From the NCBI GenBank assembly GCA_963575745.1, contig CAUYUJ010020182.1, positions 504,604 to 568,603 on the forward strand: a stretch of DNA of 64,000 bases, written 5' to 3'. The first letter of the stretch is position 1, and each line of letters begins with the position of its first letter. The stretch is from Prorocentrum cordatum (Eukaryota; Sar; Dinophyceae; Prorocentrales; Prorocentraceae). A program made the translations under genes and the position numbers. Of the stretch, positions 5,965-56,997 are shown one piece after another. The notes beneath the pieces were generated by a model, which ran no database searches, had not been told where the DNA came from, and saw only the letters and a program-made list of their open reading frames with translations.

Positions 5965-5987
5965 TCCGTAGCCATTTTTGGCTCAAG
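5965..5987 (+). other. Spliced-leader (SL) relic at the 5' end of LINE1
   Basis: The sequence matches the conserved dinoflagellate 22-nt SL (CCGTAGCCATTTTGGCTC core) except for one extra T in the T run. It is followed directly by the LINE1 leader. SL RNA is trans-spliced onto nuclear mRNA 5' ends in dinoflagellates, so a genomic SL marks reverse-transcribed mRNA. Confidence 0.85.
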
Positions 5988-6138
5988 ATGCCTAGTTTCC
6001 ACAGGGGAGAACAGCCAGCCCCTCGCTATCCGCGGCCAGTGCCCAGGGCTTTTTTGTTTTCTTGAGCCCGACAGCTTTGTTCAACTCTCCGTGTGCCTCC
6101 TGCAGCCCGCAGGTGAGCTTCCTCAGTCACTCTCGTCC

Positions 6139-7362
6139 ATGGCGCCTCCGCAGCAGCGCAGCGCCTATGTCAAGTGCTACTCCTGCTCGTACTCCTGGAA
6201 CTACAAGACCAACCAGACGTGCTACTGGTGCAGCAAAGCCTTGGCGCCGTGGACAGACTCCCCGCCTCCAGTTCAAGGCGCCTGGGAGGCCCGCGCCAAG
6301 GCTGCAGCCCAGGCCGACCCCAGCTGTACCCAGCAGCCCAGCCCCGAGACGGGATGGGAACCGTGGTCGTCATGGCCCAAGTCCCGCCGCCGCCGAGGCA
6401 ATGGCAATGGCAAGAACCAAGAGGACGACTGGTGGGCCAACAAGAACGACACCCCCAAGGTGCGCTCCGCAGAGGATATCCTTGCGGAGCTCCAGGCGAT
6501 CGCCCCCCACATCGACAAGGCAGCCATCGACGGTATCAAGTCGCAGATCCCGCCGCCCCAGCCGCAGAAGCCAGCCGACCTCAACGACATCTACAGCCGC
6601 GCCCAGGCCACGGAGCGCCGCTGCAAGAACAATCTGGAGAGGCTGCTCGAGAGTGAGCAAAAGGCGCTCAGCTGGTACACCGAGCGCAAGGCGGCGTCGG
6701 AGGAGGCCGCCTACAAGTTGGCAGAAGCCCAGGCCGAGGCCCAAGCAGCTCTCGATGCCCTTCAAGTCGCTCGCAAGGGCGGCACGGCTCCCACGGCCTC
6801 GCAGCAGAACCCGACGTTCAACCTCACCAGCCTCCTCGAGGACGGTGACATATCCATCGAAGCGGGTTCGGCGTTCGATCTCCAAGGCCTCGACATCGAC
6901 GACAGCGATCGCCAGGCATGGGGATCCCTTCAGCAGCGCTTCGCCACGGAGCTCAAGGCCAAGGTCACCGAGCTCTTCGGCAACACCGCCAGCCGCATCA
7001 GCCAGCTCCGCACAGAGGCCAGCACCATGCGCACGCGCTTCGCCGCCAAGCGTCAGCGGGCCGACGAGGACGGTCACGCCCGAGAGGGAGGTGGATCTCC
7101 GCCCGCCGCCTCGGCGGCAGCAGGCGAACCCCCAGCGGCAGCCGCAGCGGACGCTGATGGCTCCGTGGCCTCATCGCCAGCGGCGCCAGGCGACGAGCCT
7201 CCCGCACCTGCTGCTGGTGCTACTTCTGACGGCAGCGTCGCTGCACAGCCTGTACCAGCGATCAACAAGGACCCCGACCTCGAAGACAAGGCACAGAAGA
7301 TGCTCAGCCAGATGCGCAAGCCCACCGCTACCGCCGCGGCTGGAGCGCAGCAGCCTCTTTAG
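6139..7362 (+). CDS. LINE1 ORF1: zinc-finger, coiled-coil protein
   Basis: 407 residues from the first ATG after the SL relic. Residues 12-31 hold a CX2C-X11-CX2C finger with an internal Asn, resembling the RanBP2-type fold, which in other proteins binds RNA or ubiquitin. An acidic and Lys-rich middle follows, then a long Ala/Glu/Lys-rich helix (about residues 150-215) likely to form a coiled coil, and an Ala/Pro-rich tail. This layout fits a LINE ORF1 RNA-binding protein. It ends in TAG 58 bp before the ORF2 ATG. The frame is open upstream only because of CCT repeat. Role as ribonucleoprotein component is inferred from position. Confidence 0.8.
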   Translation: MAPPQQRSAYVKCYSCSYSWNYKTNQTCYWCSKALAPWTDSPPPVQGAWEARAKAAAQADPSCTQQPSPETGWEPWSSWPKSRRRRGNGNGKNQEDDWWANKNDTPKVRSAEDILAELQAIAPHIDKAAIDGIKSQIPPPQPQKPADLNDIYSRAQATERRCKNNLERLLESEQKALSWYTERKAASEEAAYKLAEAQAEAQAALDALQVARKGGTAPTASQQNPTFNLTSLLEDGDISIEAGSAFDLQGLDIDDSDRQAWGSLQQRFATELKAKVTELFGNTASRISQLRTEASTMRTRFAAKRQRADEDGHAREGGGSPPAASAAAGEPPAAAAADADGSVASSPAAPGDEPPAPAAGATSDGSVAAQPVPAINKDPDLEDKAQKMLSQMRKPTATAAAGAQQPL

Positions 7363-7420
7363 CCGACTACTACCCGACCCTGGACGGAATGGTGAGACGG
7401 GACGCCTACCGTCAGAGACC

Positions 7421-10400
7421 ATGAAATACGACAACCCACCGATCATCAACACAATGGACGCAGTCCTCGACCCGTTCGACGAGCTGGCCGAGTTGGACGC
7501 CCACATCGATTTCGCAGCCACAGTTCAGTTTGCTACCGCCCCGCCCGAGACGCTGTCCTCGGCAGGGGGCGATGAGGCGGCACAGTCCGTCGACGCAGTA
7601 TCATGGGACCCAGGGCAGCCGCAGCGTGCCGAGCGAGCCGACCCTGATGCCGCTCCGCCCGAGACGCTGTCCTCGGTAGGGAGTGATGAGACGGCCCGAG
7701 CTGTCGACAAGCAGTTGGTACAGGAACCAGGGGATCAGGTGCCAAAGGCACACCCTGATGCCGCCCCGCCCAAGACTCAGTCCTTGGTAGGGGGCGATGA
7801 GATGGCGGAAGCCATCGGCTCGACCGCTGTGGAAGGCCCATGCAAGCCCAGCAGCCCGAGACCCGTCCCCAGACCCGTCTACCAAGACGAAGGCCCTACG
7901 AATCCCACGCCGTCAGATCACTCCCTTTTCTTCTCCAACATTACCCAGTGGGGGCCACAGTCGGAGAAATGGTTGGCAGGACCAGGCAAACAATATCAGA
8001 TGGTGGCATTGGTGGAGACACACATCTCGCACGGTAAGGCCCCTCTCATCTACAACAAGCTAGCATCAGATGGTTGGAGGATATCATCGACTACAGCCAC
8101 GCCGACCAGCAGATCCGACGGAGGCAACACGGGCGGCGAGATCATACTCTCCAGGTACCACGTCCAGGCCACAACCTTCAACCACCTCCGCGACCTGGCC
8201 ATCTCCCAGCGCAGGCCCGACCCGTTCCGAGGCTTCACCCCCATGGTATGGCACAGACGCTCGGGCAACCTGGTCGTTATTGCAGCATACCTGGAACCCC
8301 ACAGGCAGATCGAGGGTGCAGTGCACGATAAGCTACTTTCGCTGGGGGCCTTCGTCACTATGCTCTCTGACCCGTGGATCATCCTGGCCGATTGGAATAT
8401 GACTCCTGAGCAGCTCGCAGCGACAGAGTGGCCCGCCAAATGGAATGCTACCATCGTGCGAGCGCCTGGATCTGCCACGTGCGACAAGGGCCAGGGGCTC
8501 ACGCTCGACTTCGCATTGGTCAAGTCTGGCATCGAGCACACGATCTCCATTCGCCAGTGCCCCACCGTCCCCTGGGCCACCCACGTGGGCTTTGAGGTTC
8601 GAGCAGGCAGTGCAGACCCCTGGTGGTATCAGTCGATCCATACCCCCAGAGCCTTCCCCACAGTGGACAGACCCAGGATCCCACCCGACCCCAATAGCAA
8701 GTCCGCCATCAAGAGACGCAAAACAGCAGAAGCTCGAGCGGCACGCCTACGCGAACTACCTCCTGAACTCCAACAAACAGCAGCACAACTCCAGCCTCAA
8801 GACGAGCCCGCAGCACAGGAGCCCATCCCTTACGCTATCCCGACCGACCTCTGGGAGGAGCAATGGCAGCAAGCAGTGCCCACACGTTGTAAGCAGCCCC
8901 GCGCGCACTTCGTGTACACTCACTGGGCGCACCACGCCGACGACCTCAACCTCAAGTACGCCAAATGGGTCACGGCGCTCGAGAACACCATGATCAGCCA
9001 TCACCAGATCGACCCCAAGGAAGCCGCAGCCTTCACAGGCCGTGCCCAAGGCTACCAATTTTCCTGGAAGAAGACGGCCGCCGCCCCAGGCCGCGTTCAC
9101 GTACATGACCCTCAGTCTGAATGGTGGGCAATCACGCTCGCCCTCATCAAGCGCTACGCTGCGCTTCACGACAAGCCCAAGCACACAGCGCTCATGCAGC
9201 AGCAGGCCTCCATCATCCAGCAGCGCGCGGACCACTTCAGCACTCACTTTCACGACCTCCAGTTCGAGAAGGTCGAGGACACCATCTTCCGCTGGTTTGC
9301 ACTCGTCTGGGCCCCGCACTTGGACAACGAGGACACCGGCGACTTGGTCACCATTACTGCTACCTGGGCCTCCAGAGCGCTGGCCGCCGCCCTCGCTAAG
9401 TCCAAGAGGGCCTACGGCGCCTGGCTCGCCAAGCAATGGAAACACCGCCCTGGAGTACTACACGCCCATGTCAAGCCAGCGCCCGTGCGCCACATCGAGG
9501 CCTACACGACCAACCTGACCATCGCCGACCCCGCCGTTATCATGGACAGCAAGAAGCAACAATGGCAACAAGTATGGCAGGCCACAGAGACCCCGGACGA
9601 CATCCTACAGGCGCTATCAAAGGCCAAGACAGCAGCCGCACACCAACCGCTCGAGCCCATCACAGCCGAGATCGTACATCGTTTTCACGGCCGCGTGCCA
9701 CCCAGTAAAGCACATGGAGTGGACGCACTTGGACCTCGCGACCTCCATCGACTACCAGAACCAGCAGTCGAAGCCTATGCGGATATCCTCAACGCAGTAG
9801 AGCAGGCAGGCATTTGGCCACTACAACTCTCAGGCACTATTGCAGCCCTAGCAGCCAAGAAGTCTGGAGGCGACAGGGTCCTCGGCATGCTACCTCACAT
9901 GGCCAGGCTCTGGTATCGCATCAGATCGACGGCATCTACTTCCTGGACCCAAGGACTGGATGACTTTTGGACTACAGCCATCAAAGGCTCCTCAGCTCTC
10001 CAGGCCGCCCTGCACAGGGCCTTGTTAGACGAGACAGCCTCAGCACTTGGCATACAGTCAGCCACATTGCTATTGGACATTCAGAAGTTCTACGACAATA
10101 TCAAGCTCGCCAACCTCATCATGGTCGGCCTCAACTGCGGCTTCCCACCCATCGTTCTACTTCTGGAAGTACAGCTATACCTCGCGCCCAGATTCTTGCG
10201 CAGCCGACAATGGGTGAGTATGCCTATCTTCGCCTCCAAAGGCATCATCGCAGGCCCCCCGCATGGCACGACCTTGGCGCGACTCATATTACTTCCTATT
10301 CTACGGCAAGCCCAAGCTCAGGCTGAGCTAGCCCAGATGTGGACCTTCGTAGACGACACCGTCCTCCGAGTCGAAGGAGTCCTACGCACACTTCAGAAGC

Positions 10401-12850
10401 ACCTCCCCCGTGCCGCCAAGACGCTCTGCGACGGTTTAAAGGACTTCGAGTTGCCCATCTCTGACAAGACGGTCCTCATCGGCTCCACCCCCAAGGTCCG
10501 CAAATCGCTTGCCAAGAAGTTGCGGCAGTACGACATCCCTGTCACAGCGACCGCCACGGCCGTCGACCTCGGAGTTGACGCGGCCGCGGCTACTCGACGG
10601 GTACAAGCCAAAGCCAGGAAGCGACAGAGCTCAGCCGCAGCTAGGTTTCGCAAGATACACCGACTACGGAGCACTGCACAGCAGGCTCGAATCTCAGCAG
10701 GACTGTGGCGTACTGGCGCTCTCCCCGAAGGAGTCTTCGGTCATCAGGTGCACGGCCTTGCTCGACACGCTCTACTACGATGGCGCCGTCAGGCCGCCAT
10801 CGCTGCCACGGGGGCAGCAGCGGGCCGATGCCTCACCTCCCTCCTCGGCGCCACCTTCGACGGCATGGGCCCAGGAGTTTCCCTAAGAATCGAGTTCATC
10901 GAGGCTTGGCTCCAGCGCTGGATACGCCACCCGAGCACGCACGCCAGGATCATCAGAGCATGGCCAAGGATCAAGACCACCTTGCTAGCCGCAGGCCCCA
11001 AGCTGTGGTGCAGGGTCAAGGGACCCACTGGCGCGACCATCGCAACACTGCTGGAGGCCAGCTGGGAGCCGACCTCAGCCACCACGTGGAGGCGCACAAA
11101 GGACGGCTACATTGAGGAGTGGAACCTCCCCTCTGCCCACGACCCAGACCTCCCCGACGCCGACATCCACACAGTATTGCAGGACCTCAGCGAGGATTTT
11201 CACAGGCTCCTTTGGACTCAGGCCGCTACCCATGACCATGGCGACACGCTGGCTGGAGGAGCGGACATGGTCACTATCCGCATCGAGCAAAGGAGGTTCC
11301 TCGCAAACGGTGATTTCAGCGACTGGGCCCTCAACAACACCGTCATCAGTGGAGGACAATGGACCAGGGACCGCCTCCACAACTCGGGCTACCAGATTGA
11401 CAGGAACTGCGACCGATGCAGCGCAGGAGTTCCTGAAACCCTGTTTCACCGTATGTGGCAGTGTGAGGCGAACGTGGGGCCTGAGTTTGAGGCCAGTGAC
11501 AAGCTACTACCGCGAGCCGTGGCGGGGGCCGAAGCTGACCCTGCCCTGTGGCTCCGTGGCATTCCCTCCGCCGCTCTCACTACGCCCGCGTTCGAGCCAT
11601 TGACTGGGAGGGACGGGTGGGAGTTGGTTGGCGCGGTGCGGGATGGGTTGCCGTCGTGGGAAGGAGCTCGTAACGCTGAGGGCGAGTTGTTTCTTTTTGG
11701 CGACGGATCTGGCGGCGCCTTTTCCGACGACGTCAGACGAAGACGTGTTGGTTCTGGCCTCGCGGCCCTCCGATGGGACCCTCCCTCGGCTTCATGGGCC
11801 CTCCATGCTGGCCTCCTCGCCCCCCTCCCAGGCCCCCGCCAGACTGTCCCAAGAGGCGAATTGCATGCGTTTTGCCTGGCTCTCGAGACGTGCCAGCATG
11901 ATTTCACGTTTGTTACCGATCACCTAGCCCTACAGCGCGGCTGGCAGAATGGCAGATGTCTCCGACCTGGCAGCCTCAGAGGCAAGAATAAGAATGGGGA
12001 TCTCTGGCTGAGAATTCGGCACCTCGTGCAGGATCGACCTGGCGGCTGCTCTTCGGTCTCGGTGCTCTGGACCCCATCTCATGCCGATCCCCTCTCGTTG
12101 AATGGTTTCCAAAAATTTATGGCTCTCGGCAACCAGCATGCCGATGAGCTCGCGGGAAGAGCGGCCCACAAGTCGGCCACCCTTGCCCTCCCGCCTGTCC
12201 CCAGGACTGATGAATATGACGCTATTGCAGCCATCGTCCGACAGAGGGCCCGACTGATCTTACGTTCCTTAGGCAAGAATTCAGAGCCTCGAGGACAGTG
12301 GCCAGAAAGGCAATTCACCCAGGTTGCAGCCCCTCGCTCTCAGCTGCAGACCGCGATCGCGGCTTCTCAGCACAAATTCGAGCGGTGTGCAGACAAATGG
12401 AGATGCCCTGCTTGCCTCATCATCGTTGACGCGTGCCGCGTTATTCCAGCTGCCGCCACTGAGTGTGTGCCGCCTTGCCCCCTTCCCGAGTTCGCCGCGT
12501 GTGGAGAGGTGCTGTGGTCGAGGGGTCCCCGCGTGATCAGTGGCAAGTTGATCCACCCCTCCCACTTTTTGGCCACCATCCCCAAGTGGCAGATGTTCTT
12601 TTGTGTGAAGTGCGGCCATACGGCCACGCACCAGGTTAAAAGCCTTCTTTTGCCGTGCCCTCTCTCCCACCAAGTGGGAGAGCGCAGGGCCCTGGGACCC
12701 ACGGGCAAAGGCCTCGAGAACCTCAGCAGGATCAGGCGAGGCCTCCACCCGTCCAGAGCGGGTCCCAGCAAGGCAGTGCTTGAAGCTTTGCACGTTTCGG
12801 CAGCCGAAGCCGCGATCGGTTCCTTCGCGGCGGGTGCTGCCACCGAGTAA
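7421..12850 (+). CDS. LINE1 ORF2: endonuclease, reverse transcriptase and RNase H
   Basis: 1809 residues with no interruption. The N-terminus has three degenerate APPETLSS-GGDE repeats. From about residue 173 an endonuclease/exonuclease/phosphatase domain shows NITQWG, LVETH, ADWNMTP, LDFALV and ATH, the expected metal-site and histidine motifs. RT motifs follow: LLLDIQKFYDNI (A, about residue 883), GIIAGPPHGTTLA (B) and TFVDD (C, about 974). RNase H (about 1420-1590) has FGDGSGG, RGELHAF, VTDHLAL and GNQHADELAGR, giving the D-E-D-D set. The C-terminus has Cys pairs (RCPAC, FCVKCGHTA) suggesting zinc ribbons. The enzyme would nick target DNA and prime reverse transcription there. ATG 7421 is the first after ORF1; the frame is open further upstream, so a fused reading cannot be excluded. 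Confidence 0.93.
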   Translation: MKYDNPPIINTMDAVLDPFDELAELDAHIDFAATVQFATAPPETLSSAGGDEAAQSVDAVSWDPGQPQRAERADPDAAPPETLSSVGSDETARAVDKQLVQEPGDQVPKAHPDAAPPKTQSLVGGDEMAEAIGSTAVEGPCKPSSPRPVPRPVYQDEGPTNPTPSDHSLFFSNITQWGPQSEKWLAGPGKQYQMVALVETHISHGKAPLIYNKLASDGWRISSTTATPTSRSDGGNTGGEIILSRYHVQATTFNHLRDLAISQRRPDPFRGFTPMVWHRRSGNLVVIAAYLEPHRQIEGAVHDKLLSLGAFVTMLSDPWIILADWNMTPEQLAATEWPAKWNATIVRAPGSATCDKGQGLTLDFALVKSGIEHTISIRQCPTVPWATHVGFEVRAGSADPWWYQSIHTPRAFPTVDRPRIPPDPNSKSAIKRRKTAEARAARLRELPPELQQTAAQLQPQDEPAAQEPIPYAIPTDLWEEQWQQAVPTRCKQPRAHFVYTHWAHHADDLNLKYAKWVTALENTMISHHQIDPKEAAAFTGRAQGYQFSWKKTAAAPGRVHVHDPQSEWWAITLALIKRYAALHDKPKHTALMQQQASIIQQRADHFSTHFHDLQFEKVEDTIFRWFALVWAPHLDNEDTGDLVTITATWASRALAAALAKSKRAYGAWLAKQWKHRPGVLHAHVKPAPVRHIEAYTTNLTIADPAVIMDSKKQQWQQVWQATETPDDILQALSKAKTAAAHQPLEPITAEIVHRFHGRVPPSKAHGVDALGPRDLHRLPEPAVEAYADILNAVEQAGIWPLQLSGTIAALAAKKSGGDRVLGMLPHMARLWYRIRSTASTSWTQGLDDFWTTAIKGSSALQAALHRALLDETASALGIQSATLLLDIQKFYDNIKLANLIMVGLNCGFPPIVLLLEVQLYLAPRFLRSRQWVSMPIFASKGIIAGPPHGTTLARLILLPILRQAQAQAELAQMWTFVDDTVLRVEGVLRTLQKHLPRAAKTLCDGLKDFELPISDKTVLIGSTPKVRKSLAKKLRQYDIPVTATATAVDLGVDAAAATRRVQAKARKRQSSAAARFRKIHRLRSTAQQARISAGLWRTGALPEGVFGHQVHGLARHALLRWRRQAAIAATGAAAGRCLTSLLGATFDGMGPGVSLRIEFIEAWLQRWIRHPSTHARIIRAWPRIKTTLLAAGPKLWCRVKGPTGATIATLLEASWEPTSATTWRRTKDGYIEEWNLPSAHDPDLPDADIHTVLQDLSEDFHRLLWTQAATHDHGDTLAGGADMVTIRIEQRRFLANGDFSDWALNNTVISGGQWTRDRLHNSGYQIDRNCDRCSAGVPETLFHRMWQCEANVGPEFEASDKLLPRAVAGAEADPALWLRGIPSAALTTPAFEPLTGRDGWELVGAVRDGLPSWEGARNAEGELFLFGDGSGGAFSDDVRRRRVGSGLAALRWDPPSASWALHAGLLAPLPGPRQTVPRGELHAFCLALETCQHDFTFVTDHLALQRGWQNGRCLRPGSLRGKNKNGDLWLRIRHLVQDRPGGCSSVSVLWTPSHADPLSLNGFQKFMALGNQHADELAGRAAHKSATLALPPVPRTDEYDAIAAIVRQRARLILRSLGKNSEPRGQWPERQFTQVAAPRSQLQTAIAASQHKFERCADKWRCPACLIIVDACRVIPAAATECVPPCPLPEFAACGEVLWSRGPRVISGKLIHPSHFLATIPKWQMFFCVKCGHTATHQVKSLLLPCPLSHQVGERRALGPTGKGLENLSRIRRGLHPSRAGPSKAVLEALHVSAAEAAIGSFAAGAATE

Positions 12851-12858
12851 ATTGCGAG

Positions 12859-12937: not shown

Positions 12938-12977
12938 TTCCCTGGGTTCCGAACGGACTACGTCCGATTGCTCCACT

Positions 12978-13528
12978 CCACTCCCCCTCCTCCTCCTCCT
13001 CCTCCTCCTCCTCCTCCTCTCCTCCTCCTCCTTTCTGCCCCCTCCTCCCTCCCCCTCCTCCCTCCCTCTCCCTCCTCCTCCTCTCCTCCTTCTCCTCCTC
13101 TCCTCCCTCTTGTCCTCCTCCCTCCTCCTCCTCCCTCCTCCTTCTCCTCCCGTCTCCTCCTCCTCCCTCCTCCCTCCTCCTCCCTTCTCGCTCCTCGACG
13201 TGCGCATTTTCTTTCGACGTGGGCCATCAAAAAGAGCATTGTGGGGTCCTCTCGCGAAGGAGATATGCGCGCGCGACGCCGAAACACATGCACGGGGAGC
13301 GGCCGTCCGAGCGACGTGGCGGGGAGGAGGAGGAGGAGGAGGAGGAGGAGGAGGAGGAGGAGGAGGAGAGCAGGAGGAGAGAGGAGGGAGGAGGAAGGAG
13401 GAGAGGAGAGGAAGAGGAGGAGGATGAGAGGAGGAGGAGGGGGAGGAAGGGGGAGGAGGGGGAGGAGGGTGAGGTGGGAGGAGAAAGGAGGAAGTGGAGG
13501 AGGAGGAGGAGGAGGAGGAGGAGGAAAA
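12978..13528. repeat. Facing (CCT)n and (GGA)n tracts
   Basis: About 12978-13190 is imperfect CCT; about 13319-13528 is imperfect GGA. They form a long imperfect inverted repeat around a 125-bp unique spacer. Frames through them are artefacts. Confidence 0.9.
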
Positions 13529-13530
13529 AG

Positions 13531-13723: not shown

Positions 13724-13765
<42 letters not shown>

Positions 13766-18022: not shown

Positions 18023-18875
18023 AGAGGGCTGGTGGGACTCGGGGTCGTGATCCGCACGGCCCCCCTGGTGCGCCCCCTGTTTTCTCCCCCTGCTCCTCAC
18101 CGTCGTGCCCGTCCTTCCTTCTGTCTCGCCGGAGCTCCTGGACGAGACGCCCCTCAAACAGCTGCATCAGCATGCACTTTCAGACGTCCACGCGGGTTTG
18201 TTGGACCTGCGCGGGGGGCCCTCCTCGCCCTCCTCCCCTCCCTCGTTCTACTCCTCAGGCTCCTCCTGATCCTTCCTCTTCCTCCTCTTCCTCCTAATCC
18301 TCTCTCCATCCTTCTCCCCCCCCTCCTCATCATCCTTCTACTGCTACTCCTCCCACGGGTGACTACGCCAAAGCTTATGACCTTTGATGGCCCCAGTGCA
18401 TCAGTGGACCATCAAAGTTAGTGCATCAACCCGTCCTCGCTGATGGCCGCCTCATCCTTTGAAGCCTATCGCGAGTTTGGTGGGCCTCCTCCTCCTCATC
18501 CTCCTCTTCGGCCGAAGGCACGAACCTGATTTGTAGGGAACAACAACTGACGGTGCTGCATGATTCTGTTGGCCTCGCGGGCAGCAGCGAAGCTCGAACA
18601 GCTCGGGCGAGACATTGATGCAAGACGCGGTGTCGGCGCTCTCATTTGGGCAAAATGGTACGCCTGGCAGTCGTCCGCGCGTGATCATTCCCCAAAGGGT
18701 GCTTGCATTTAGGGGTTCTTGCTTCTCCTCTAAGGAACTGGGCCGTAGGGTCGGTCTGGCGCCTATGTAACCGCCGTCACCGCCCCGTCGCCGACTCGTC
18801 GCCACCCGTCGTCTGGGTCGTGTGGTCAGTGTGGCGGTTATGTGGCCGCCGTCGCCGCCCGTCGCCAGGGCCTTG
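18023..18875. other. Spacer with decayed CCT and one small palindrome
   Basis: Pyrimidine-rich repeat at about 18220-18350. A 9-bp inverted repeat CTTTGATGG / CCATCAAAG (18382-18390, 18409-18417). No gene seen. Confidence 0.45.
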
Positions 18876-19509: not shown

Positions 19510-19845
19510 TTCATTCCTTGAGTGGTAAAAACACTGCGTAGACATAAACTCTCGGAGCTGCGAAAATTTATGATTATGCAGTCTGTTGTAATTCTAGCTT
19601 CTGCGGCACGCGAAACATGTGCTTCGCCTTTGTGGAGCAGCGGAGCAGTGGCGCACACTTCCAGATTGACTGCACGACTACGAACAGCGGTGGCACAGTT
19701 GAGACGCGAAACTGATTCGTGAGGAACTTGGGCACACCATCGACATGCTGCCCGGCGAACAATCAGGAGACAAGAACGAGCTCCCATTTTGCTCAATTGC
19801 CCTCATCCACCAGTCTGGCACGGTGAAGTGATGAGTAAAGGCCTC
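19510..19845 (+). pseudogene. Decayed RPL9 copy upstream of the intact gene
   Basis: Colinear but heavily mutated match to the RPL9 coding region downstream. About 19650-19760 matches the YAHFPIN...VEIRNFLGEK stretch (GCGCACACTTCC, GGTGGCACAGTTGAGA, ACATGCTGCC), with an in-frame TGA. About 19772-19830 matches the KDELI and AALIHQS stretches (AAGAACGAGCTC, then GCCCTCATCCACCAGTCTGG). Indels disrupt the frame and part of the 3' end is missing. It runs up to the SL relic of the intact gene, so an older RPL9 copy sits directly upstream of a newer one. Confidence 0.75.
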
Positions 19846-19847
19846 CC

Positions 19848-19869
19848 TCCGTGGCCATTCGGGCTCAAG
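19848..19869 (+). other. Degenerate spliced-leader relic before RPL9
   Basis: 22 nt aligned without gaps to the dinoflagellate SL, with three mismatches (GTG for GTA, and CG for TT in the T run); it ends GGGCTCAAG. It lies 76 bp upstream of the RPL9 ATG, as expected if a trans-spliced RPL9 mRNA was copied back into the genome. Confidence 0.65.
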
Positions 19870-19945: not shown

Positions 19946-20512
19946 ATGAAGACGCTGATGCAGGAGGAGGTCGTGAAGGTCCCGAAGGGCATCAAGATTT
20001 CTATCAAGTCCAAGATCGTGGAGGTCTCCGGCAAGCACGGTACCCTGAAGCGCAGCTTCAAGCATTTGCCCATCGAGTTGCGTTTGGCCAACAGCAGCAA
20101 AGAGGTCCGGGCCAGAATGTATTTCGCCAAGTCGAAGCAGCTGTCCATGCTCAACAGTTGTTGCAGCCACATCGCGAACCTCTTCACTGGTGTGGAGCAG
20201 CGCTTCCAGTACAAACTGCGCCTCGTGTACGCGCACTTCCCGATCAACGTCACGATCACTAATGGTGGTGGCACCGTCGAGATCCGCAACTTCCTCGGGG
20301 AGAAGATCGTGCGTACCGTGAACATGCTGTCGGGCGTGAAGATCGAGAAAAGCACGGCGACCAAGGACGAGCTCATTGTCACCGGTGCGGACATCGACCT
20401 GACTTCGCGCTCGGCCGCCCTCATCCACCAGTCTTGCCTGGTCAAGAACAAGGATATCCGTAAGTTCCTGGACGGCATCTACGTCAGCAGCCACGGTGCC
20501 ATCGAGGACTGA
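19946..20512 (+). CDS. RPL9: 60S ribosomal protein L9 (uL6), intronless
   Basis: 188 residues, the usual eukaryotic length (about 190). The start MKTLMQEE corresponds to the family MKT... N-terminus, so ATG 19946 is chosen over upstream in-frame codons. Diagnostic stretches include the GTLKRSFKH region, YAHFPINVTI, VEIRNFLGEK, a KDELI-type block and KNKDIRKFLDGIYVS near the C-terminus. uL6 binds 25S/28S rRNA near the sarcin-ricin region of the large subunit. There is no intron, a degenerate SL relic upstream and a decayed copy before that, which together point to a retroposed gene. No frame damage is seen, so it is probably expressed; no promoter was recognised. Confidence 0.97.
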   Translation: MKTLMQEEVVKVPKGIKISIKSKIVEVSGKHGTLKRSFKHLPIELRLANSSKEVRARMYFAKSKQLSMLNSCCSHIANLFTGVEQRFQYKLRLVYAHFPINVTITNGGGTVEIRNFLGEKIVRTVNMLSGVKIEKSTATKDELIVTGADIDLTSRSAALIHQSCLVKNKDIRKFLDGIYVSSHGAIED

Positions 20513-29696: not shown

Positions 29697-29912
29697 TCCT
29701 CCTCCTCCTCCTCCTCCTCCTCCTCCTTCTCCTCCTTCCCCTCCTCCTCCTCCTCCTCCTCCTCCTCCTCCTCCTCCTCTCCTCCTCTCCTCCTCCTCCT
29801 CCTCCTCCTCCTCCTCCTCCTCCTCCTCCTCCTCCTCCTCCCCTCCTCCTCTTCCTCCTCCTCCTCCTCCTCCTCTTCCTCATCCTCCTCCTACTCCTCA
29901 TCATCCTCCTCC
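29697..29912. repeat. (CTC)n tract before an SL relic
   Basis: Imperfect CTC/CCT runs directly into the SL relic at 29913. Confidence 0.9.
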
Positions 29913-29934
29913 TCCGTAGCCATTTTGGTTCAAG
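29913..29934 (+). other. Spliced-leader relic at the 5' end of LINE3
   Basis: 22 nt with a single C-to-T change in the GGCTCAAG end. It directly follows CTC repeat and begins the LINE3 leader. Confidence 0.85.
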
Positions 29935-30112
29935 GCGCGATTCGGCCATGGGCGCGCGGGCGCGCGGGGGGCCGTGGGCGATATTTGCCCAACGGGTGAT
30001 TCGTCCAGTTCTTCCTCCAGAGCCTCTTCCAAGCTCGTTTGTATTTTCCTTTAGTGCACCGTCCAAGCTCAATTGTGATTTCCTTCAGTAAGGGTTGATT
30101 CGGATTTCCACA

Positions 30113-30452
30113 ATGGCGCATCATATTGGACAGGTCTTCCAGGATATGCTCAAGATAGATATCGCCAAGCCGGGGGCCCGTAAGGCTGCCAGTGTGGACA
30201 AAGAAGATGCTGAACGCAGCACCAAAGAGCCTCGCAATTCAAAAGGGGGAGCCAAGGGTTCGAATGTTGATTCTCTCGGAGAAAATGGCTTTGCCTTGGG
30301 TTCTTCAGGTTCCGCGGCCCCCGACACTTCGGGACTCCTCTCACAACTGGAAGCCCTACTGGACAGAAAGTTTTTTCCTTGTCGAAGAAAAGTCCGATGC
30401 GATCTCTTATAACATGCAGGTTTTCAAAAAAAGATGTTGTTCAGGAGTTCTA
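30113..30452 (+). pseudogene. LINE3 ORF1, 5' part
   Basis: ATG 30113 begins MAHHIGQVFQDMLKIDIA and runs about 86 codons to SQLEALLDRK. A frameshift near 30371-30377 moves the continuation (FLVEEKSDAISYNMQVFKK) to another frame. The ORF is then cut by a TIR element. The remainder resumes at about 31357 as VVEGVNSNAAQIEACKLENE and an IQLLETEQKAIRAEL coiled coil. An RNA-binding role is inferred only from position in the LINE. Confidence 0.65.
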
Positions 30453-33199: not shown

Positions 33200-34980
33200 A
33201 CCTTTAACATTTCAGAAAGTGTAGGTTTGGGCCTCCCGCAAGATTATCCTTCCTATTCTGGGTTTTGTACAAGATGGTCAACAGGTCCTTGATCATGCAA
33301 AATGCCCCCAGCTTGTCTGCCAGGAGTATTCGGCCAGGTGGGGTCTCTCAGATGCTGGCACGAGGGGAGATGATGAGATGCTTCGTAGCTCTGGCTTCTG
33401 GGATGATTTTGAGACACCGGTTGATCGTGATACATTGGGTGAGGCAGTGGATGATATCCAGGCCCCCCGTAAGACAGGCCCCTACTTGGGTTGGATTGCT
33501 ATTGTCAAGATTGCAGGGGGGAGTGGGTTACAACACCTCCTGGTTGGGCATCATTTGCCAAGGGCATTTGGGAAACAAAATCAAGGGCTTCGGTCTGCCC
33601 TCTCAAACTTGAGTTGCCATCCCTCAGCTTACGATTGCCAAGATCTACCATATATTCATATATTGCTCGTTCCATCCTACCCGCCTTGGATAACTACACT
33701 CAGTCAAAAGGCATTCCTGGCCTCATCTAGGGGTTAAGTAAAGGAGGCCAACTCCAAGAGCTTCACACTTCAGTTTACCATATATTGGAGCATAGCCGCG
33801 ATCATGTCAACAACGGCATGGCGGGCATCACAGACATCAAAGCTCATCGCGATCAAATACGTTATGGGTTAGCACTTAGAAGCCTCACTGGGAGAGGGGT
33901 ATGTTGCTTTCTAGCAATGGGTTGCCTAAGACTTCGCAGGGGGCCCAGGGTCACCTTTTCCATCTTAGACTCAGAGACGGATGTGATCGACCGCCGAAAG
34001 GGGGTTGGCGCAGGGAGCTGGCACGGCATGTACGCCTGCAAGAACCACCGTGGAAGACTGTTTCATCTGCGCCCTTGGAAAGATCTATGGGGCATCCCTG
34101 GGCATCCATTTGAGAAGCGAGACCTCGGGGATTGACTTCTCTCCCTCCCTCCTCAGTTGGTCAGACAACATCTTCGCGATAGGTTCTAGCTTCGAAGATC
34201 TAACTCGGCTCGCGAGTGTCCTCGAAGGGGTTCTCTGGGAGTTGCATAGGGTCCGTATCCAACCAGACAGGGAAATCCTCGCCTCCGATCCCCGCGCTTT
34301 CGACAGCTCCGACAGGACGGACGCAGGCGGACCTCAGTGGACTGTCGTATCTGAGGCGAGGATTATCGGTATCATGTTGTCTAACGGCTCATGCAATGCG
34401 GATGTTCGCAGGGGGCTTCAGCAGATTTGCAGCGCGTTTTGGTCCAATAGCACATTTCTTGTGAATGGCAAAATTCCTGTGAGCACACGGCTTGGGGAAC
34501 CCAACCGCATGGCCTGCGGCATCATCAGGTCGAGAGGTGCTGCTTGGGTTCCCTCGAAGCATACTTGGGATTTTATTTCCAAAACCCCGAACAAACTCAT
34601 CAACATCACGCTTAAGACCAAAAGACAGTCTGAGGGGACTTCCGATCAGTTTAACCCCAGGAGGAACAGGAAAGTCAAACAGTACAGGGGCGTCTGCCGG
34701 ACTCTTGTCCATACGGAGTCAGCCAGTAGCTGGCTTGCACACGTGCAGAGGCATCCTGAAGACCATTCATTCCCCCCGGCTTTTTCGAAACTGTAAACAC
34801 TGGGTGTCGGACAATCGGTGTTTTGACAGCCCAGGGGTAGCCGAGCCAATTCCAGAATTCACAGGGACCATGTTTTACGATATGATCAGGTCTTGGACCT
34901 CTCGTTTCTCTCACGAGGGCTCTCGAGACAAGAAGGTGCGTCATCAACTAGCTCGGGTCATGTTGGATTGGGCATGAAGT
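33200..34980 (+). pseudogene. LINE3 reverse-transcriptase relic
   Basis: The best frame is 34005-34796, with LLSWSDNIFAIGSSFEDLTR, where SWSDN sits at the position of RT motif C, then a thumb-like VLWELHRVRIQPDREIL and a post-RT region. Upstream frames (33378-33737, 33785-34135) are pieces in different phases. At least three frameshifts and an end stop near 34794. Confidence 0.5.
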
Positions 34981-50215: not shown

Positions 50216-50229
50216 GGGAGGTTCCTGGG

Positions 50230-50746: not shown

Positions 50747-50942
50747 AGGAGGAGGAGGAGGAGGAGGCGGCGGAGGAGGAGGAGGCGGAGGAGGAGGAGG
50801 AGGAGGAGGAGGAGGAGGAGGAGGAGACGGAGGAGGCGGAGGACGAGGAGGAGGAGGCGGAGGCGGAAAAGGAGGAGGAGGAGGCGGAGGAGGAGGAGGA
50901 GGTGGAGGAGGAGGCGGAGGAGGAGGAGGAGGAGGGGGGCAG
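50747..50942. repeat. (GGA)n/(GGC)n tract
   Basis: Imperfect GGA with GGC units. Confidence 0.9.
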
Positions 50943-51084
50943 GGGCGGGGAAGGGGTCCAGGGGCCCCCGCCGAGCGGCAAAGCAAGTCAAAAGCCTGAG
51001 CTTGGCGCGCACGCGGGGCGCGCGCAGCGGCTCTGCGGCGCTCGAGCTCATGCACGCGCGATCTCTGGAGGTCTCCTGAGAGTT

Positions 51085-51277
51085 CCCAGATCCACGCATG
51101 ATCGCGTCGTAACAACAAATCACGACGGGAGGTTTTTGGCAGCGTTCGCCCTCGGGGGGCCCTCGCCGGGCCTCGGGACCGTCAAAGGACGACTCAGGAC
51201 GAAAAGCCGGTCCCGGGGAAAGGGTGGGGACTTCCAGGGACCCCATATTGAAAAAGTCAGGACGTCGCATGTCTGGG
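51085..51277 (-). mobile_element. MITE-like element C, copy at 51 kb
   Basis: Ends CCCAGA...CATGATCGCGTCG and GACGTCGCATGTCTGGG; interior as 21935-22106 (GACGGGAGGTTTTTGGC, GGCCTCGGGACCGTC). Confidence 0.75.
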
Positions 51278-51777
51278 GAGAGGCCCCCCGCCAGAGGCCA
51301 CTGGAGGCCCAAGGTGGGCCCAGGTCATGTCAAGCCCGCTGGGAACTTGCGAAATCCTTGGAGCGGCGGCGCACGTGCGACGATGGCGTGCGTGGACTTG
51401 CGCGTCGATGTATGTTCATTTGCATTTCGGCCTGCATGCCGCCGATTGCCATTCACTGTGTCTCTCGATTCGCAGGCGCGCGTGCGCAGCGCAATGTGCC
51501 GCTGGCACACGGGATGCTCGCGCCGCCCGCCACCGAGTCCAGACGTCCCGCTTGTCCACGGGTCTGCCCCTCCGTCAGCTCACGGCGACTGCGCATCGGA
51601 AGTGTCGCCCGTTCGCTGGCCCACCCGTCCCCGCGTCCAAGCTTTTCCGAGGGATGCTGCGCCCAACCGGACGCCCCCAGACGCCTCCAGAAGTCCCCGC
51701 TCTGGAGGCCTCGCACCTCCGGAGGCCTGCCGAGGCCCAAGGGGGTCGCGAGGCGGCACAAGTAGAGCGTCGAACCC
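51278..51777. other. PKA-R intron, unassigned
   Basis: Unique sequence with several short frames, none recognised. Confidence 0.4.
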
Positions 51778-52022
51778 CGATCCCCCCCGCCCTCCTCCCC
51801 CCGCCGCTCCTCGCAGACTCCCAGAAACCCCGCTCCCTTCTCCCCTGCCTCCCTCCTCCCCTCCCTCCCTCCTCCCCCCCCCTCCCTCCTCCCCTCCCTC
51901 CCTCCTCCCCTTCGTCCTCCTCTCCCCCCTCCCCTCCCTCCTCCCCCTCCCTCATCCCCCCTCCTGCCTCCCTCCTCCCTCCCCTCCCTCCTCACCTCAC
52001 CCTCCCTCCTCCCCCCCTTCCT
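51778..52022. repeat. CCCTCCTCCCC minisatellite
   Basis: Repeated CCCTCCCTCCTCCCC-like units. Confidence 0.9.
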
Positions 52023-52154
52023 CCACAATGAAACAATATGAATGCTACTCTCCTCTCTCCCCTGGTGGCGTCCAGGGAATGGCCGGCCCCCTCCGCGTAC
52101 TGGTTTTTTGCCCACCGGATTCCCGGAAAAATTGTTTTCGCTTGGGTGATTTTC

Positions 52155-53100
52155 AAAATGCTGCTCTCGCTGGAGCGCTGGCCTCATTTTCGGGCTACCG
52201 CTCGTTCAGAATGGTGCTCCCGCTGCAGCGCTGGCCTCATTTCCGTGCTTCCGCTCATTCCGAATCGTACTCCCGCTGTAGCGTTGGCGTCAGTATTTCC
52301 AGCCCCAGGCCACGGCATGTCTTTCGGTCCTTCCAAATACTGGGTAGTCGAAGGCCAGACTGTCAAATTGGATTGGGCCCCAAGGGCCAATCTGGCCCGG
52401 CCAAACTGGATGATTTGGGTTATTCGCCAGACTGGATTCGCGTTGGCTCCCTCGCCAGATTGCCCCCGTTTGCCAGATTGGGCCTGCCAGATTGGCGCCA
52501 GATTGGCTTCGACTACCCAGAAATAGGCCCCACAGTTTAGAAAATGCCGTGAAGAAAAACCATCAGAAGTGATTACACATTCGGTGCCGTTTCGTTGATT
52601 TTTGGGGCCGCATAAGCCCCCCCCTTTTGGGGTGTCGCCACGCCATGTTCTGTCAGGCTACGCGTCCTCATGTCCGCGCTTCCGCGCTTTGGTTTTTATT
52701 CAAAATGCTGCTTTCGCTGAAGCGCTGGCTTCATTTTCGGGCTACCGCTCGTTCCGAATCGTGCTCCCGCTGCGGCGCTGGCCTCATTTCCGCGCGTCCG
52801 CTCGTTCCGAATCGTGCTCCCGCTGCAGCGCTGGCGTCATTATGTCCAGCGCCATGCCTCCCGCTGCAGCGCTGGCGTCATTATGTCACTATGTCCTTCC
52901 AAATAGGACAAAACATATAAAAAATGCCCACCCGAAAAAATCATCGGAAGGGATTACACATTCGGTATCGATTCGTCGATTTTGGGGGCCGCGGAAGCCC
53001 CCCCCCACTTTGGGGCGTCGCCACGCCATGCTATGTTATGCTACGCGTTAATCTTCAAGACCATGCTATGCCATGTAATGCTATGCCATGCTACGACATC
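52155..53100. repeat. GCTGCAGCGCTGGC tandem repeats and a 380-bp direct duplication
   Basis: Units around CGTGCTCCCGCTGCAGCGCT, about 55-60 bp, occur at 52155-52300 and 52700-52880. Around them a longer segment (CACATTCGGT, GCCCCCCCC, GTCGCCACGCCATG, CTACGCG) is present at 52575-52665 and 52955-53045. It ends in CATGCTATGC-type repeats to 53095. Confidence 0.8.
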
Positions 53101-54112
53101 CGACTGAGCGAATAGAATGGAGATCTACGCCATGGTAAGGGATGGGAGGGAGGGGTAGGACGTCAGATATGACGCGAGCGCACATAGTTTGTCTCGCCCC
53201 CCATCCTGCCCCCCCCCTCCTCCCAGAACCCACCCCAGATCTCGAGAGTGCCCCGTCCATTCCAGGACGTGGCTCCCTCTCAAGCAAGCAAGGAGCGGTG
53301 GCCCCTCCTCCCTGGGCGGACGCTTGCGGACGACCCGTGGACGCAGGCCGAGATGCAGACGGCAATGGCTCCGTCAGAGGAAAGTCCTGGTGCGTCGAGA
53401 AGGGAGAGGCGAGTGAGGGATCATTGCGTTTGGACCTAGATCTGCTTTCTGGGAGTCTGGGTACGCCGAGAGGGGAGAGGCGAATGAGGGATCGTTGCGT
53501 TTGGACCTTGTTTGTATCTGCTTATTGGGCGGCTCCGCACGTTGTATGGGGCCTCTGGATGCTTCTGCGGACCTCCTGATATCTCAAGCGAGCTCCAGGG
53601 TCCTCCGTAGGTATCTGGTTCGCGGAGCGGGGAAACAGCGAGAGCGATGTTCCGCTTGGTCCAGCTGCGAAGCCGTATGCGCAAAAGTGCACCAAAATTG
53701 GCCAGGTACATTTGAGGAGTAGTTTGGCTACCAGGGTATTGCTCTTACAATACAGCAGTACTCTCAGGTGGCGAAGGATGCTGATAGTTTGTGGAGTCGA
53801 TTTCCCCAACTGGGGTACATACCGAACTAAGCCTAACTTCTCACTTCCACTACTCCTTGTCGATTGATTGGGGCATCTCTTTGCGTGGGAGTTGGCATGG
53901 CGACGATCGAGCACCAGCGGTTGGAAGGCATGGGTCTAGGGCCAGCCCTCAGGGCGAGGCGAGTCTGGAAATTCAGGTCAAGGGCTGTTCTGCAGGGCTG
54001 AGGATGGTCGGGAGGACCATGTCCAAAGCTCGGTGCGCGAGAGGGCATGCCTCGGGCCTGGCACCGCGAGACTGGGCCACCAGCAAGGCAGCGACTGCAC
54101 TTCACACCCTTT
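53101..54112. other. PKA-R intron, unassigned, with a small tandem copy
   Basis: GAGGCGAGTGAGGGATCATT and its copy GAGGCGAATGAGGGATCGTT (about 53405 and 53478) mark a 70-75-bp tandem duplication. Otherwise nothing recognised. Confidence 0.45.
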
Positions 54113-54296
54113 CCCAGACCCCCTCACGGTGTGAAAAAAACACGACGTGAGGTTTTTCGTTGTTTTCGGCCTTCAGGGGCCTTTACCGGGCCTCGGATCT
54201 GTCCAAAAACGAGTCAGGATGAAAAACCGGTCTTTGGGAAGAGGTCCTGACCTCGGGGGGTCGACGTTGTAAAAAAAACGACGTCGGGGGTCTGGG
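54113..54296 (-). mobile_element. MITE-like element C, copy at 54 kb (184 bp)
   Basis: Perfect 11-bp terminal inverted repeat CCCAGACCCCC / GGGGGTCTGGG. Interior GGCCTTCAGGGGCCTTTACC and AGTCAGGATGAAAAACCGGT as in the family. Confidence 0.8.
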
Positions 54297-54548
54297 TTAC
54301 TTATCCGTCCCCCCAAGCCCTCTCCGCATCCTCGTCGTCCTCCGGGGATTTCAGAGCTGACCACGACATAGAGAAGCCCCACCCTGGGGCCTCGGGGTAG
54401 TGAAGCTCTGCAGCCGGGCCACGAGCCTCGAGACGAAGCCCCGAGGCTCCACTCTGGGCTTGCCGTGACCACTCTGGGCTGGCCGTTTTCCTTCGGCCTG
54501 GGTCAGGGGCTGCGGCTCGCAGGCCAGAGGGGGCATGGCCACGCTTGG

Positions 54549-54566
54549 CGACGACGACGACGACGA

Positions 54567-54632
<66 letters not shown>

Positions 54633-54672
54633 CAGCGGCAGCGGCAGCGGCAGCGGCAGCGGCGGCGGCGGG
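54549..54672. repeat. (GAC)n and (GGCAGC)n
   Basis: About 28 GAC units followed by about five GGCAGC units. The poly-Asp and Ser-Gly frame (from 54535) has an ATG but no recognisable domain. Confidence 0.9.
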
Positions 54673-54884
54673 AACGACGGCGCCTTCGCACGAGCGCTGC
54701 GGGGGATCGGCTCTGCCACCCAAGGGGGGCCGCGGTGCCCCTCGGGCCTGCGGGTCGCCTCGGCTCCGTGCGCCCAGGGCAGGCAGGTCGGCCATGAAAC
54801 CAGCCTGCCGGCAAGCGCCCCAGCGAGGGCCTCATGGGGCTTCAGAAGGCTGAGAGCGCCCGAGGAGGGTCAGGTGTGGAAGCA

Positions 54885-55091
54885 TTCAGGAGGCAAAAAA
54901 AGGCACTCAGACACAAAGAACTGCCGATCCCCAGGAGAATATGGAAGAGATGGGAAAGTGGATTGGAAGACGAACACCCAGGTAGCATGGAAAGTTTGAG
55001 GAATCCTGGGATGTTTGTCTATTTGTGTGTACGTGTGTGTGTGTGTTGTGTGTATGTGTGTGTTGTTTTTTGTGTTGTGTGTTGTGTGTGT

Positions 55092-55122
<31 letters not shown>

Positions 55123-55238
55123 GTGTGTGTGTTGTGTATGTGGTGTTGTGTGTATGTGTGTTGTGTATGTGTGTTGTGCGTGTTGTGTGTTGTGTGGTCT
55201 GTGTTGTGTGTTGTGTGTGTGTCCCTGGGCACCTGCAG
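54885..55238 (+). mobile_element. Introner-like element, family 2, copy with (TG)n expansion
   Basis: Family-2 blocks (CACTCAGACACAAAGAAC, CCGATCCCCAGGAGAATATG, GGAATCCTGGGATG, TTGTGTGTACGTGTGTG) then about 190 bp of TG/TGTGTA repeat and the closing TCCCTGGGCACCTGCAG. It lies directly upstream of the domain-A exon at 55278. Confidence 0.75.
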
Positions 55239-55277
55239 ACATGGGCGGCGGGGCGTGCCGGCCGCGCGCTCGGCCAG

Positions 55278-55340
55278 GTGATTTGTGGGCAGCTGGACGC
55301 GGGGCCTCTGCAGGACGTCGTCAACGCCTTCCACACGAAG
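55278..55340 (+). CDS. PKA regulatory subunit, start of cAMP-binding domain A
   Basis: Frame VICGQLDAGPLQDVVNAFHT then K, aligning without gaps to the first helix of domain A in known PKA-R proteins (VLFSHLD...DAMF). The acceptor CTCGGCCAG precedes it. An earlier start at 55239 (after CACCTGCAG) is also in frame. It joins the next exon through a shared AGGAG: here GAAGGAGCTC, there TCAGGAGTTC. Confidence 0.7.
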
Positions 55341-55519
55341 GAGCTCAGGAGGGACAAAAACACACACACACACACACACACAGACACAATTAATCGTCGA
55401 TTCCCCAGAACAGATGGGAAAATATGGGAAGTGGAAGACAAAAACACAGAAAAGATGGGAAAGTATGGGGAATCCTATTATTTGTGTCTATTCATTTGTG
55501 TGTCCCAGGGCCCTCTCAG
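55341..55519 (+). mobile_element. Family-2 introner forming the domain-A intron (179 bp)
   Basis: Begins GAGCTCAGGAGGG (GA donor) and ends CCCTCTCAG. Between are a CA repeat, AGACACAATTAATCGTCGAT, GGGAAAATATGGGAAGTGG, GGGAATCCTATTATTTGTGT and CCCAGGGCCCTC, colinear with copies at 17868, 40010 and 54885. Removal restores domain A. AGGAG is present at both borders, as expected for a target-site duplication shared with the splice sites. Confidence 0.85.
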
Positions 55520-55832
55520 GAGTTCGCGCAGGGCGCCGAGGTCATCAAGCAGGGGGACGACGGGGACTGCCTCTACATCATGAAGCAGGGCAGCGTCGAC
55601 ATCTTCGTCGCGCGCCCGGGGCCCGACGGCGAGGTCCCCAAGGGCGAGCGGGGGTCCAAGGTCCTGACCCTGGGGGAGGGGGGCCTCTTCGGGGAGCTGG
55701 CCCTCATGTACAGCGCCCCCCGCGCGGCCACGGTCGTGGCCGCCGAGGCCGTGGCCACCTGGGTCCTGGACGCGATGGACTTCAAGATGCTCGTGGCCGT
55801 CTCTGGCGCGGCCCAGTACGCCAAGTACGAGG
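55520..55832 (+). CDS. PKA regulatory subunit, core of cAMP-binding domain A
   Basis: 104 codons: EFAQGAEVIKQGDDGDCLYI then MKQGSVDIFVARPGPDGEV and so on to AQYAKYEG. It contains the phosphate-binding cassette LFGELALMYSAPRAATV, with the Glu that contacts the cAMP ribose and the Arg that contacts the cyclic phosphate. The domain has a longer beta4-beta5 loop (GPDGEVPKGERGS) than mammalian RI. The cAMP site looks functional. The exon ends GAG-G before GCTGCC (GC donor). Confidence 0.92.
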
Positions 55833-56012
55833 GCTGCCCGCCACAAACAGACATGCACAGACACCCTCCAATGGATTGTTCCTGGACCTCAGGGGAGGGC
55901 GGCGGTGTATGAATTACCACTGAGAGCCAGCGGCTTTACACACCGCCACCCTCCCTGGAGGTACTTGCAGGGTTCGTCGGAGGGCGTCTGTGTATAGATT
56001 TTCGTGGCGCAG
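55833..56012 (+). mobile_element. Hairpin introner (family 3) forming the next PKA-R intron (180 bp)
   Basis: A GC-AG intron (GCTGCCC...GGCGCAG). It is almost all inverted repeat: ACAGACACCCTCC (55857-55869) pairs with GGAGGGCGTCTGT (55979-55991), and GGAGGGCGGCGGTGTA (55894-55909) pairs with TACACACCGCCACCCTCC (55937-55954). GGCTG is duplicated at both borders (55832-55836, 56012-56016). Confidence 0.75.
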
Positions 56013-56110
56013 GCTGGCTCGCGGGGATTGACCTGCTGAGGCCGCTCAACCACATCGAGCTCGCGACGCTGGCGGACGCCCTGGAGCCAGAAGTCTTCGA
56101 CCCCGACGAG
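56013..56110 (+). CDS. PKA regulatory subunit, inter-domain helix exon
   Basis: Joined to the previous exon it reads YEG-WLAGIDLLRPLNHIELAT then LADALEPEVFDPDE, matching the mammalian [25 protein letters not shown] segment that links domain A to domain B. After 56110 the frame enters GAG and CCGGCCACGACGAC repeat. GAGGAG is shared with the border of the next exon at 62869. Confidence 0.88.
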
Positions 56111-56449
56111 GAGCCGGCCACGACGACGACGACGACTACGACAACGACGACGACGACGTCGCAGGCGACGGCGACGGTGAAGGCGACGGCCACGGCCACG
56201 GCGACGGCGACCGCGTCCTCGTTTCGGATGCTTTGGGCTGATTCTCGGGGTTCTCGTCCCCACGGCTGGGCGCGGCTCGGAAGCCTGGCCAGGATAGACC
56301 CTGGGATGGGGCCGGGGGCACGTTTTGGGGCAGATTTCTGGTCGGGCGCATGGCGAGGTGGGGCGGCCTTCTCAGGAGGCCAGGGGGGGCGCCTAGAATC
56401 GATTTAGAAGCGTGGACCCCAAACAGGGCATCGTGCACGCTGGATGTGT

Positions 56450-56975
56450 AACCCATGTGGTACATGATATGTAGTGCAAGCTTTCTAGTGCAAGCTGTGT
56501 TGTTTAAGCTATGTGGTGCGAGCTATGTGGTGTAAGGTGTAAGCCATGGGATTCGAGCTATGCTGATCTAGTTTAAGATGTATGTTATGTGGTCCAAGCA
56601 GTGTTGTACAATAGATGTGGTGCAAACTGTGTGGTGCAAGACATGTGATCGTTTCTGTGTGGTGCAAGCTATGAGGAATGAATTACGTGATGCACTATGC
56701 AAATCTATGGTGCACGCTATGTGGATAGAGCAATGTGGTAACATACAATATTTGTGGTGCCAGCTGTGTGGCGTAAGCTATGTGGTGTGAGATAATTGTT
56801 TAACGCGCGTGATACAAACTATGGTGTACTAGCTTGGTGTTTAAGTTACGTGGAGCAAGCTGTGTGGTACAACATGTGTAGTGCAAGATATGTGGTGAAT
56901 GCTATGTGGTGCGAGCTGCGTGATGTAAGCCATGTGGTGCAAACTACGCGGTGCAAGTTGAACGGTGAAATATGT
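56450..56975 (-). repeat. GTGGTGCAAGCTATGTGGTG minisatellite
   Basis: Degenerate units, the reverse complement of those at 18955-19500. The tract stops exactly at the LINE2 SL relic and a remnant appears again at 62080-62140, beyond LINE2. Confidence 0.85.
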
Positions 56976-56997
56976 ACCGTAGCCATTTTGGCTCAAG
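56976..56997 (+). other. Spliced-leader relic at the 5' end of LINE2
   Basis: A 22-nt perfect match to the dinoflagellate SL, beginning ACCGTAGCC and ending GGCTCAAG. It is followed directly by ATG and the LINE2 leader. Confidence 0.92.

Follow-up and report, generated by a model that had tools for sequence, protein, structure and literature searches.

Each of the three elements that we identified as LINEs or a probable LINE in a 64,000-nt stretch of Prorocentrum cordatum DNA (the whole stretch analysed, referred to below as the window) carries a 22-nt spliced leader (SL) at its left edge. In our judgement it is likely that every one of them arose from a LINE messenger that had received the SL by trans-splicing and was then copied into DNA through its 5′ end.

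A whole-window scan with the 22-nt SL pattern, allowing up to three mismatches, returned matches at 29913 (one mismatch), 56976 (none) and 19848 (three). The mean number of matches expected by chance was 0.00, and none of 100 dinucleotide shuffles gave three or more. Scanning by edit distance (limit 5) added the SL with one inserted T at 5965, giving the following sites:

5965–5987, plus strand: SL relic at the LINE1 5′ end, the 22-nt SL with an extra T (edit distance 1)
19848–19869, plus strand: fourth, older SL relic, upstream of a ribosomal-protein gene (three mismatches)
29913–29934, plus strand: SL relic at the LINE2 5′ end (one substitution)
56976–56997, plus strand: perfect SL at the LINE3 5′ end (no mismatches)

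These are the only sites within edit distance 3, and every copy has the orientation of the gene downstream. At edit distance 5 the scan picked up three minus-strand places as well, one near 18645 and two within LINE3 (near 57304 and 57423). No truncated SL relics were found elsewhere in the window with 15-mers at up to two mismatches or a 12-mer at up to one. The first nucleotides of the four copies (T, T, T and A) are compatible with the D of the SL consensus, so the copies look complete. A first-pass annotation of this DNA had reported the three LINE-associated copies, and both scans bore out their positions and differences from the SL. Its placement of the SL exactly at the LINE starts was likewise upheld, each copy beginning where the flanking repeat array ends. 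The further statement that LINEs contain no internal SL is correct as far as recognisable SLs are concerned, the only internal candidates being the two minus-strand places in LINE3. The copy at 19848, which precedes a Ribosomal_L6 gene, was absent from that annotation.

The nucleotides directly after the SL are AT in LINE1 and LINE3 and GC in LINE2 and the ribosomal gene, and GT follows none of the four copies. Like this lack of a GT donor, the identity, position, boundary and orientation of the SL copies can be read directly from the DNA. Because dinoflagellate splice donors have been reported also as GC or GA in the excerpted literature, the missing GT would be a firm argument against SL RNA genes for LINE1 and LINE3 and a weaker one for LINE2 and the ribosomal gene.

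LINE1 extends from 5965 to about 12980 with a CTC-rich array on both sides. Its components are as follows:

5672–5964, plus strand: CTC-rich array directly 5′ of LINE1 (40/40 pyrimidines before the SL)
5988–6138, plus strand: LINE1 5′UTR, 151 nt, with the ORF1 start taken as 6139
6139–7362, plus strand: LINE1 ORF1, an intact open reading frame of 407 aa with a CxxC...CxxC N-terminus
7421–12850, plus strand: LINE1 ORF2, 1809 aa, intact (P. cordatum homologues P0011–P0016)
9857–10423, plus strand: LINE1 RVT_1 reverse transcriptase (RT) domain (E 5e-7, 30 bits against a cut-off of 29.6)
11342–11470, plus strand: weak zf-RVT match (E 6e-4, below the Pfam cut-off)
11813–12166, plus strand: weak RNase H match (E 0.007, below the Pfam cut-off)
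12981–13196, plus strand: CTC array after the LINE1 3′UTR, its start taken as the LINE1 right edge

The upstream array is CTC-rich at 5672–5871 and then pyrimidine-rich as far as the SL. The start of ORF2 was set at the first ATG after ORF1, and residues 12–197 of the paralogue P0011 align to LINE1 from 6133 with 89.8% identity. APE-like motifs were seen by eye in LINE1, with no Pfam endonuclease match in the window copy.

LINE3 is bracketed by a minisatellite and comprises the following features:

56456–56975, plus strand: TGTGGT-type minisatellite directly 5′ of LINE3
56998–57170, plus strand: LINE3 5′UTR, 173 nt, up to the start codon at 57171
57171–62041, plus strand: LINE3 body with N-terminal region, endonuclease-like part and RT; the frame is broken and the right edge deduced
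62042–62130, plus strand: candidate target-site duplication (62042–62053, 11 of 12 positions matching), suggestive only, and resumed minisatellite

TGTGGT hexamers number 14 at 56456–56933, with two more at 62098 and 62122 and one stray within LINE3 at 60212. The start at 57171 is backed by the P. cordatum relative P0007, which aligns from residue 1 at 88.7%. No LINE3 frame is open throughout. The endonuclease-like part lies near 58255–58959 and the RT at 60066–60698 (RVT_1 E 9e-7). The RT domain scores 0.4 bits above the RVT_1 cut-off in LINE1 and 0.3 bits below it in LINE3. The LINE3 relatives P0003 and P0005 carry a precomputed annotation of endonuclease PF03372, and P0007 matches this family below the cut-off (E 2e-4); the window LINE copies gave no Pfam endonuclease match. 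Protein matches named P. cordatum account for all six obtained with LINE1 (on at least five distinct contigs) and for seven of ten with LINE3 (on at least seven), which suggests that both families are multi-copy in the genome.

The 12-nt, one-mismatch repeat flanking LINE3 is suggestive of a target-site duplication. Among random left ends, 13 of 3000 scored as well (in a cruder control, 25 of 2000), and left ends placed within the minisatellite itself did so in 104 of 525 cases, or in 87 of 525 when the stretch allowed on the right was narrower; because this array repeats itself, the repeat cannot be taken as more than suggestive. A convincing target-site duplication was found for none of LINE1, LINE2 and the ribosomal gene, for which 84, 753 and 1235 of 2000 control left ends, respectively, scored as well. 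The best LINE1 candidate falls in simple repeat.

LINE2 runs from 29913 to about 35000. It is badly decayed, and no right edge could be recognised:

29697–29912, plus strand: TCC array directly 5′ of LINE2 (the array adjoining the SL spans 29697–29915)
29935–30112, plus strand: LINE2 5′UTR, 178 nt, to a putative ATG at 30113 placed from the open frame only
33225–34793, plus strand: broken RT-like coding region of LINE2, similar to P0017

When joined, the three RT-like pieces match the 695-aa protein P0017 with 46% identity over 99%, and a single piece matches it at 52% over 259 aa. Read by eye, P0017 carries RT-like motifs in the right order. Its spacing from motif A to motif B is 59 residues (58 in LINE1 and 57 in LINE3), whereas that from B to C is 50 residues, unlike the 33 and 36 of LINE1 and LINE3. 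Pfam searches returned no RT profile match for LINE2 or P0017, and hhalign comparison of these with the LINE1 and LINE3 RTs gave no support for an RT. A PDB sequence search returned three irrelevant matches for P0017 (E 0.39–0.76) and none for LINE1, and a structure model of P0017 with the LINE2 pieces was too poor for use (mean pLDDT 33). Since the RT call depends on one homologous protein and on motif order, with no profile match, we regard LINE2 as a probable LINE. The earlier description of all three elements as LINEs is thus retained for LINE1 and LINE3, but for LINE2 in this qualified form.

The elements share several properties at their boundaries. With first ORF starts taken as 6139, 30113 and 57171, the first ORF begins 151, 178 and 173 nt past the SL in LINE1, LINE2 and LINE3, so the 5′ ends look complete. 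Arrays adjoin the SL at all three elements, and those of LINE1 and LINE3 continue on the far side of the element. Among the 60 longest self-comparison rows (at least 98 bp, simple arrays masked), none is a direct repeat flanking an element as long terminal repeats would, and visual inspection of the ends of LINE1, LINE3 and the ribosomal gene revealed no poly(A) tail. Comparison of the three bodies by blastn and tblastx, with low-complexity filters on, yielded no match at E 1e-3. In the absence of detectable similarity, one shared SL-bearing ancestor is unlikely and three separate gains are probable; the SL was probably gained independently in three lineages. For the Pfam scan, 83 ORFs or pieces from the plus strand and 63 from the minus strand were used; among them are, letter for letter, 72 of 104 (plus) and 62 of 100 (minus) of the ORFs of at least 100 aa that pass the complexity filter. 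A short RT remnant could have escaped this set, so that three of three refers to the elements found.

LINE1 and LINE2 each stand immediately after an array that is pyrimidine-rich on the sense strand (5672–5964 and 29697–29912). An equally pyrimidine-rich 50-nt stretch lies upstream of 1.6% (LINE1) and 3.3% (LINE2) of window positions, both strands counted. These arrays could reflect a target preference or offer a ready-made splice tract. As a general feature the pyrimidine tract was rejected, being absent before LINE3 and the ribosomal gene.

For LINE1, LINE2 and the ribosomal gene, the first 146 nt were predicted to fold no better than their shuffles, and the predicted LINE3 fold was equalled by 21 of 200 shuffles. 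The LINE1 leader (window 5980–6070) contains CTTGAGCC, the complement of the last eight SL bases. In the predicted fold of this leader CTTGAGCC is not paired with the SL, and by eye it is absent from the LINE2 and LINE3 leaders.

The fourth SL allows a comparison with a host gene:

19946–20512, plus strand: intronless gene, 188 aa, with a Pfam Ribosomal_L6 match (E 5e-23)

This gene is presumably RPL9. Together with its SL it looks like an SL-tagged retrogene of the known kind, so that such a retrogene and SL-bearing LINEs appear within one window. Just 5′ of its SL, at 19600–19847, there is by eye a seeming second, decayed gene copy, and the retrogene may be part of a tandem pair.

We propose that a LINE transcript, whether its own or a read-through product, would receive the capped 22-nt host SL by trans-splicing. 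LINE-type reverse transcription would then run to the capped end, and the copy would be inserted into a repeat array, with the SL as the first 22 nt of the new LINE copy. Trans-splicing, reverse transcription and a LINE source of the enzyme are what we infer from the observed termini. The ribosomal-protein gene with its SL in the same window points to the same process acting on a host mRNA. That trans-splicing precedes reverse transcription, as first put forward from inspection of this DNA, agrees with the SL at the left boundary, the missing GT and the short leader followed by an ORF in these three copies from one window. General occurrence, an SL-set 5′ end in every cycle and SL-capped LINE RNA in the present-day cell would be more speculative steps beyond it.

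Stacked double SL relics had been anticipated for trans-spliced RNAs that pass through further rounds, an expectation that failed: they are absent from all three LINEs, the best 15-nt match within 300 nt being at edit distance 5–6 and no better than in shuffles. A single round would not be expected to leave such relics. Relict leaders truncated after SL nucleotide 7 have been described in dinoflagellate cDNAs, directly downstream of a new SL, in the available text of one study (PMC3229502). Two possible explanations for their absence here are that a new SL takes the place of the old one at the terminal AG of the latter, and that the SL was gained a single time, from sources without an SL.

The latter possibility is the core of the strongest alternative, in which the active sources lack an SL and have a 5′ promoter region of their own, and the SL-bearing elements are processed by-products that seed nothing. 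The 5′ region would be removed by trans-splicing, as in retrogenes. We consider this a genuine possibility, short of probable. Single SL gain predicts the lack of stacked relics observed in all three elements, two of them (LINE2 and LINE3) are broken, and no new life cycle is required. However, LINE1 keeps both ORFs intact behind its 5′ SL and is not an obvious fossil, and all three families would have to be represented here by by-products alone.

Within our preferred reading of retrocopied, trans-spliced LINE RNA, the SL ends in AG, and a later transcript could be re-spliced at that AG, with the SL replaced instead of stacked. The absence of stacked relics fits such replacement in every cycle without proving it, and replacement is by its nature invisible in a single copy. 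The intact LINE1 ORFs lean towards replacement over single addition and are not decisive. A tentative extension, which we hold to be somewhat doubtful, is that these are promoterless LINEs that hand their 5′ end to the host, the inherited SL serving as splice acceptor and the same 22-nt end being rebuilt each cycle. The terminal AG would act as the acceptor, helped in LINE1 and LINE2 by the adjoining pyrimidine array. Any read-through transcript would be re-trimmed and re-capped at the inherited SL, and insertion downstream of any transcription would suffice. Several unrelated LINE lineages would then have converged on SL-defined 5′ ends. In the accessible portion of a Polarella study, the SL was present on 13.54% of full-length transcripts in one isolate and on 50.39% in another, with degradation as a possible reason for its lack (PMC7245778); acquisition of the SL by a transcript may not be automatic.

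It is unlikely that the LINEs were captured within host transcripts, with the SL marking a host mRNA instead of LINE RNA. Some P. cordatum gene models (P0015 and P0016) do resemble fusions of LINE1 protein with other exons, but all three elements have a short leader, similar in length, between the SL and the first ORF, and arrays flank both sides of LINE1 and LINE3. That the sites are SL RNA genes, which occur in arrays in dinoflagellates according to partly available sources, or chance SL-like sequence next to LINEs is highly improbable and largely refuted by the missing GT, the chance expectation given above and the consistent positions.

SL sequence was also found outside the window, in one viral contig and in two stretches of prokaryote genome contigs; no relatives of LINE1 or LINE3 were found in viral contigs. 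The IMG/VR contig L001 (22% GC), which we take to be giant-virus-like, matches the SL exactly over 21 nt at two places on the minus strand of 1936–2913, separated by 147 nt. After the second match comes DNA of about 50% GC that contains a 254-aa ORF and has an A-rich end; the insert looks like a trans-spliced dinoflagellate cDNA in a viral genome. In L002 (positions 1–60), filed as a Dehalococcoidia MAG, the SL adjoins a TCA array, again beside simple repeat; this stretch is probably foreign or chimeric. L003, filed likewise, appears by eye to be eukaryotic rDNA with a spacer SL followed by GT, and is probably contamination carrying a seeming SL RNA gene. GT follows the SL in L003, as an SL RNA gene needs, in contrast to 0/4 copies in the window, which makes SL RNA genes unlikely there.

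If our reading is correct, LINEs could keep a complete 5′ end without a 5′-terminal promoter, and the SL would be a marker of full-length LINE copies in the huge dinoflagellate genomes. A 2018 review, in its available portion, gave the element type behind dinoflagellate retrogenes as unknown and favoured LTR elements (PMC6050394). The complete SL on LINEs would mean that LINE machinery copies SL-capped RNA to the very end, provided that their own enzymes made the copies.

SL relics on retroposed dinoflagellate mRNAs are established (Slamovits and Keeling, 2008, as cited in excerpts of PMC12014239, PMC6050394, PMC3229502 and PMC7245778). Among the matches listed from the searched literature, much of it in excerpt, we found no report of an SL at LINE 5′ ends; within that literature the SL on ordinary retrogenes is thus known and the SL at LINE 5′ ends is new. 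DinoSL-tagged retrogenes resemble the LINEs described here in that a reverse-transcribed and reinserted mRNA bears an SL relic at its 5′ end. They differ in that a host mRNA is copied and repeated rounds can stack truncated relics, whereas in the window LINEs the element's own RNA was apparently copied and a single SL is present.

The L1Tc/ingi elements of trypanosomatids are likewise LINEs in a host with SL-trans-spliced mRNAs. In contrast, in the portions available, L1Tc is described as producing unspliced transcripts from the internal Pr77 promoter, with the 5′ end freed by an HDV-like ribozyme (PMC8190864, PMC4035085). No Rfam ribozyme match reached the gathering score anywhere in the window, and a search of the three LINE 5′ ends to E 1 gave only four matches, each to an lncRNA or snoRNA family and well short of the gathering score. 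Cer1, an LTR retrotransposon of C. elegans, demonstrates that retroelement mRNA can acquire a host SL. As reported in the available text, however, it is the spliced 2.4-kb Cer1 mRNA that occurs with and without SL1, and the 8-kb message is not trans-spliced there (PMC3315495); we would not expect the SL in new Cer1 copies. A dinoflagellate RNA virus with a 5′ DinoSL and endogenised relatives, described in the excerpt of PMC10235124, is similar in being a parasite that carries the host SL at its 5′ end and differs in being an RNA virus, with no LINE 5′ terminus.
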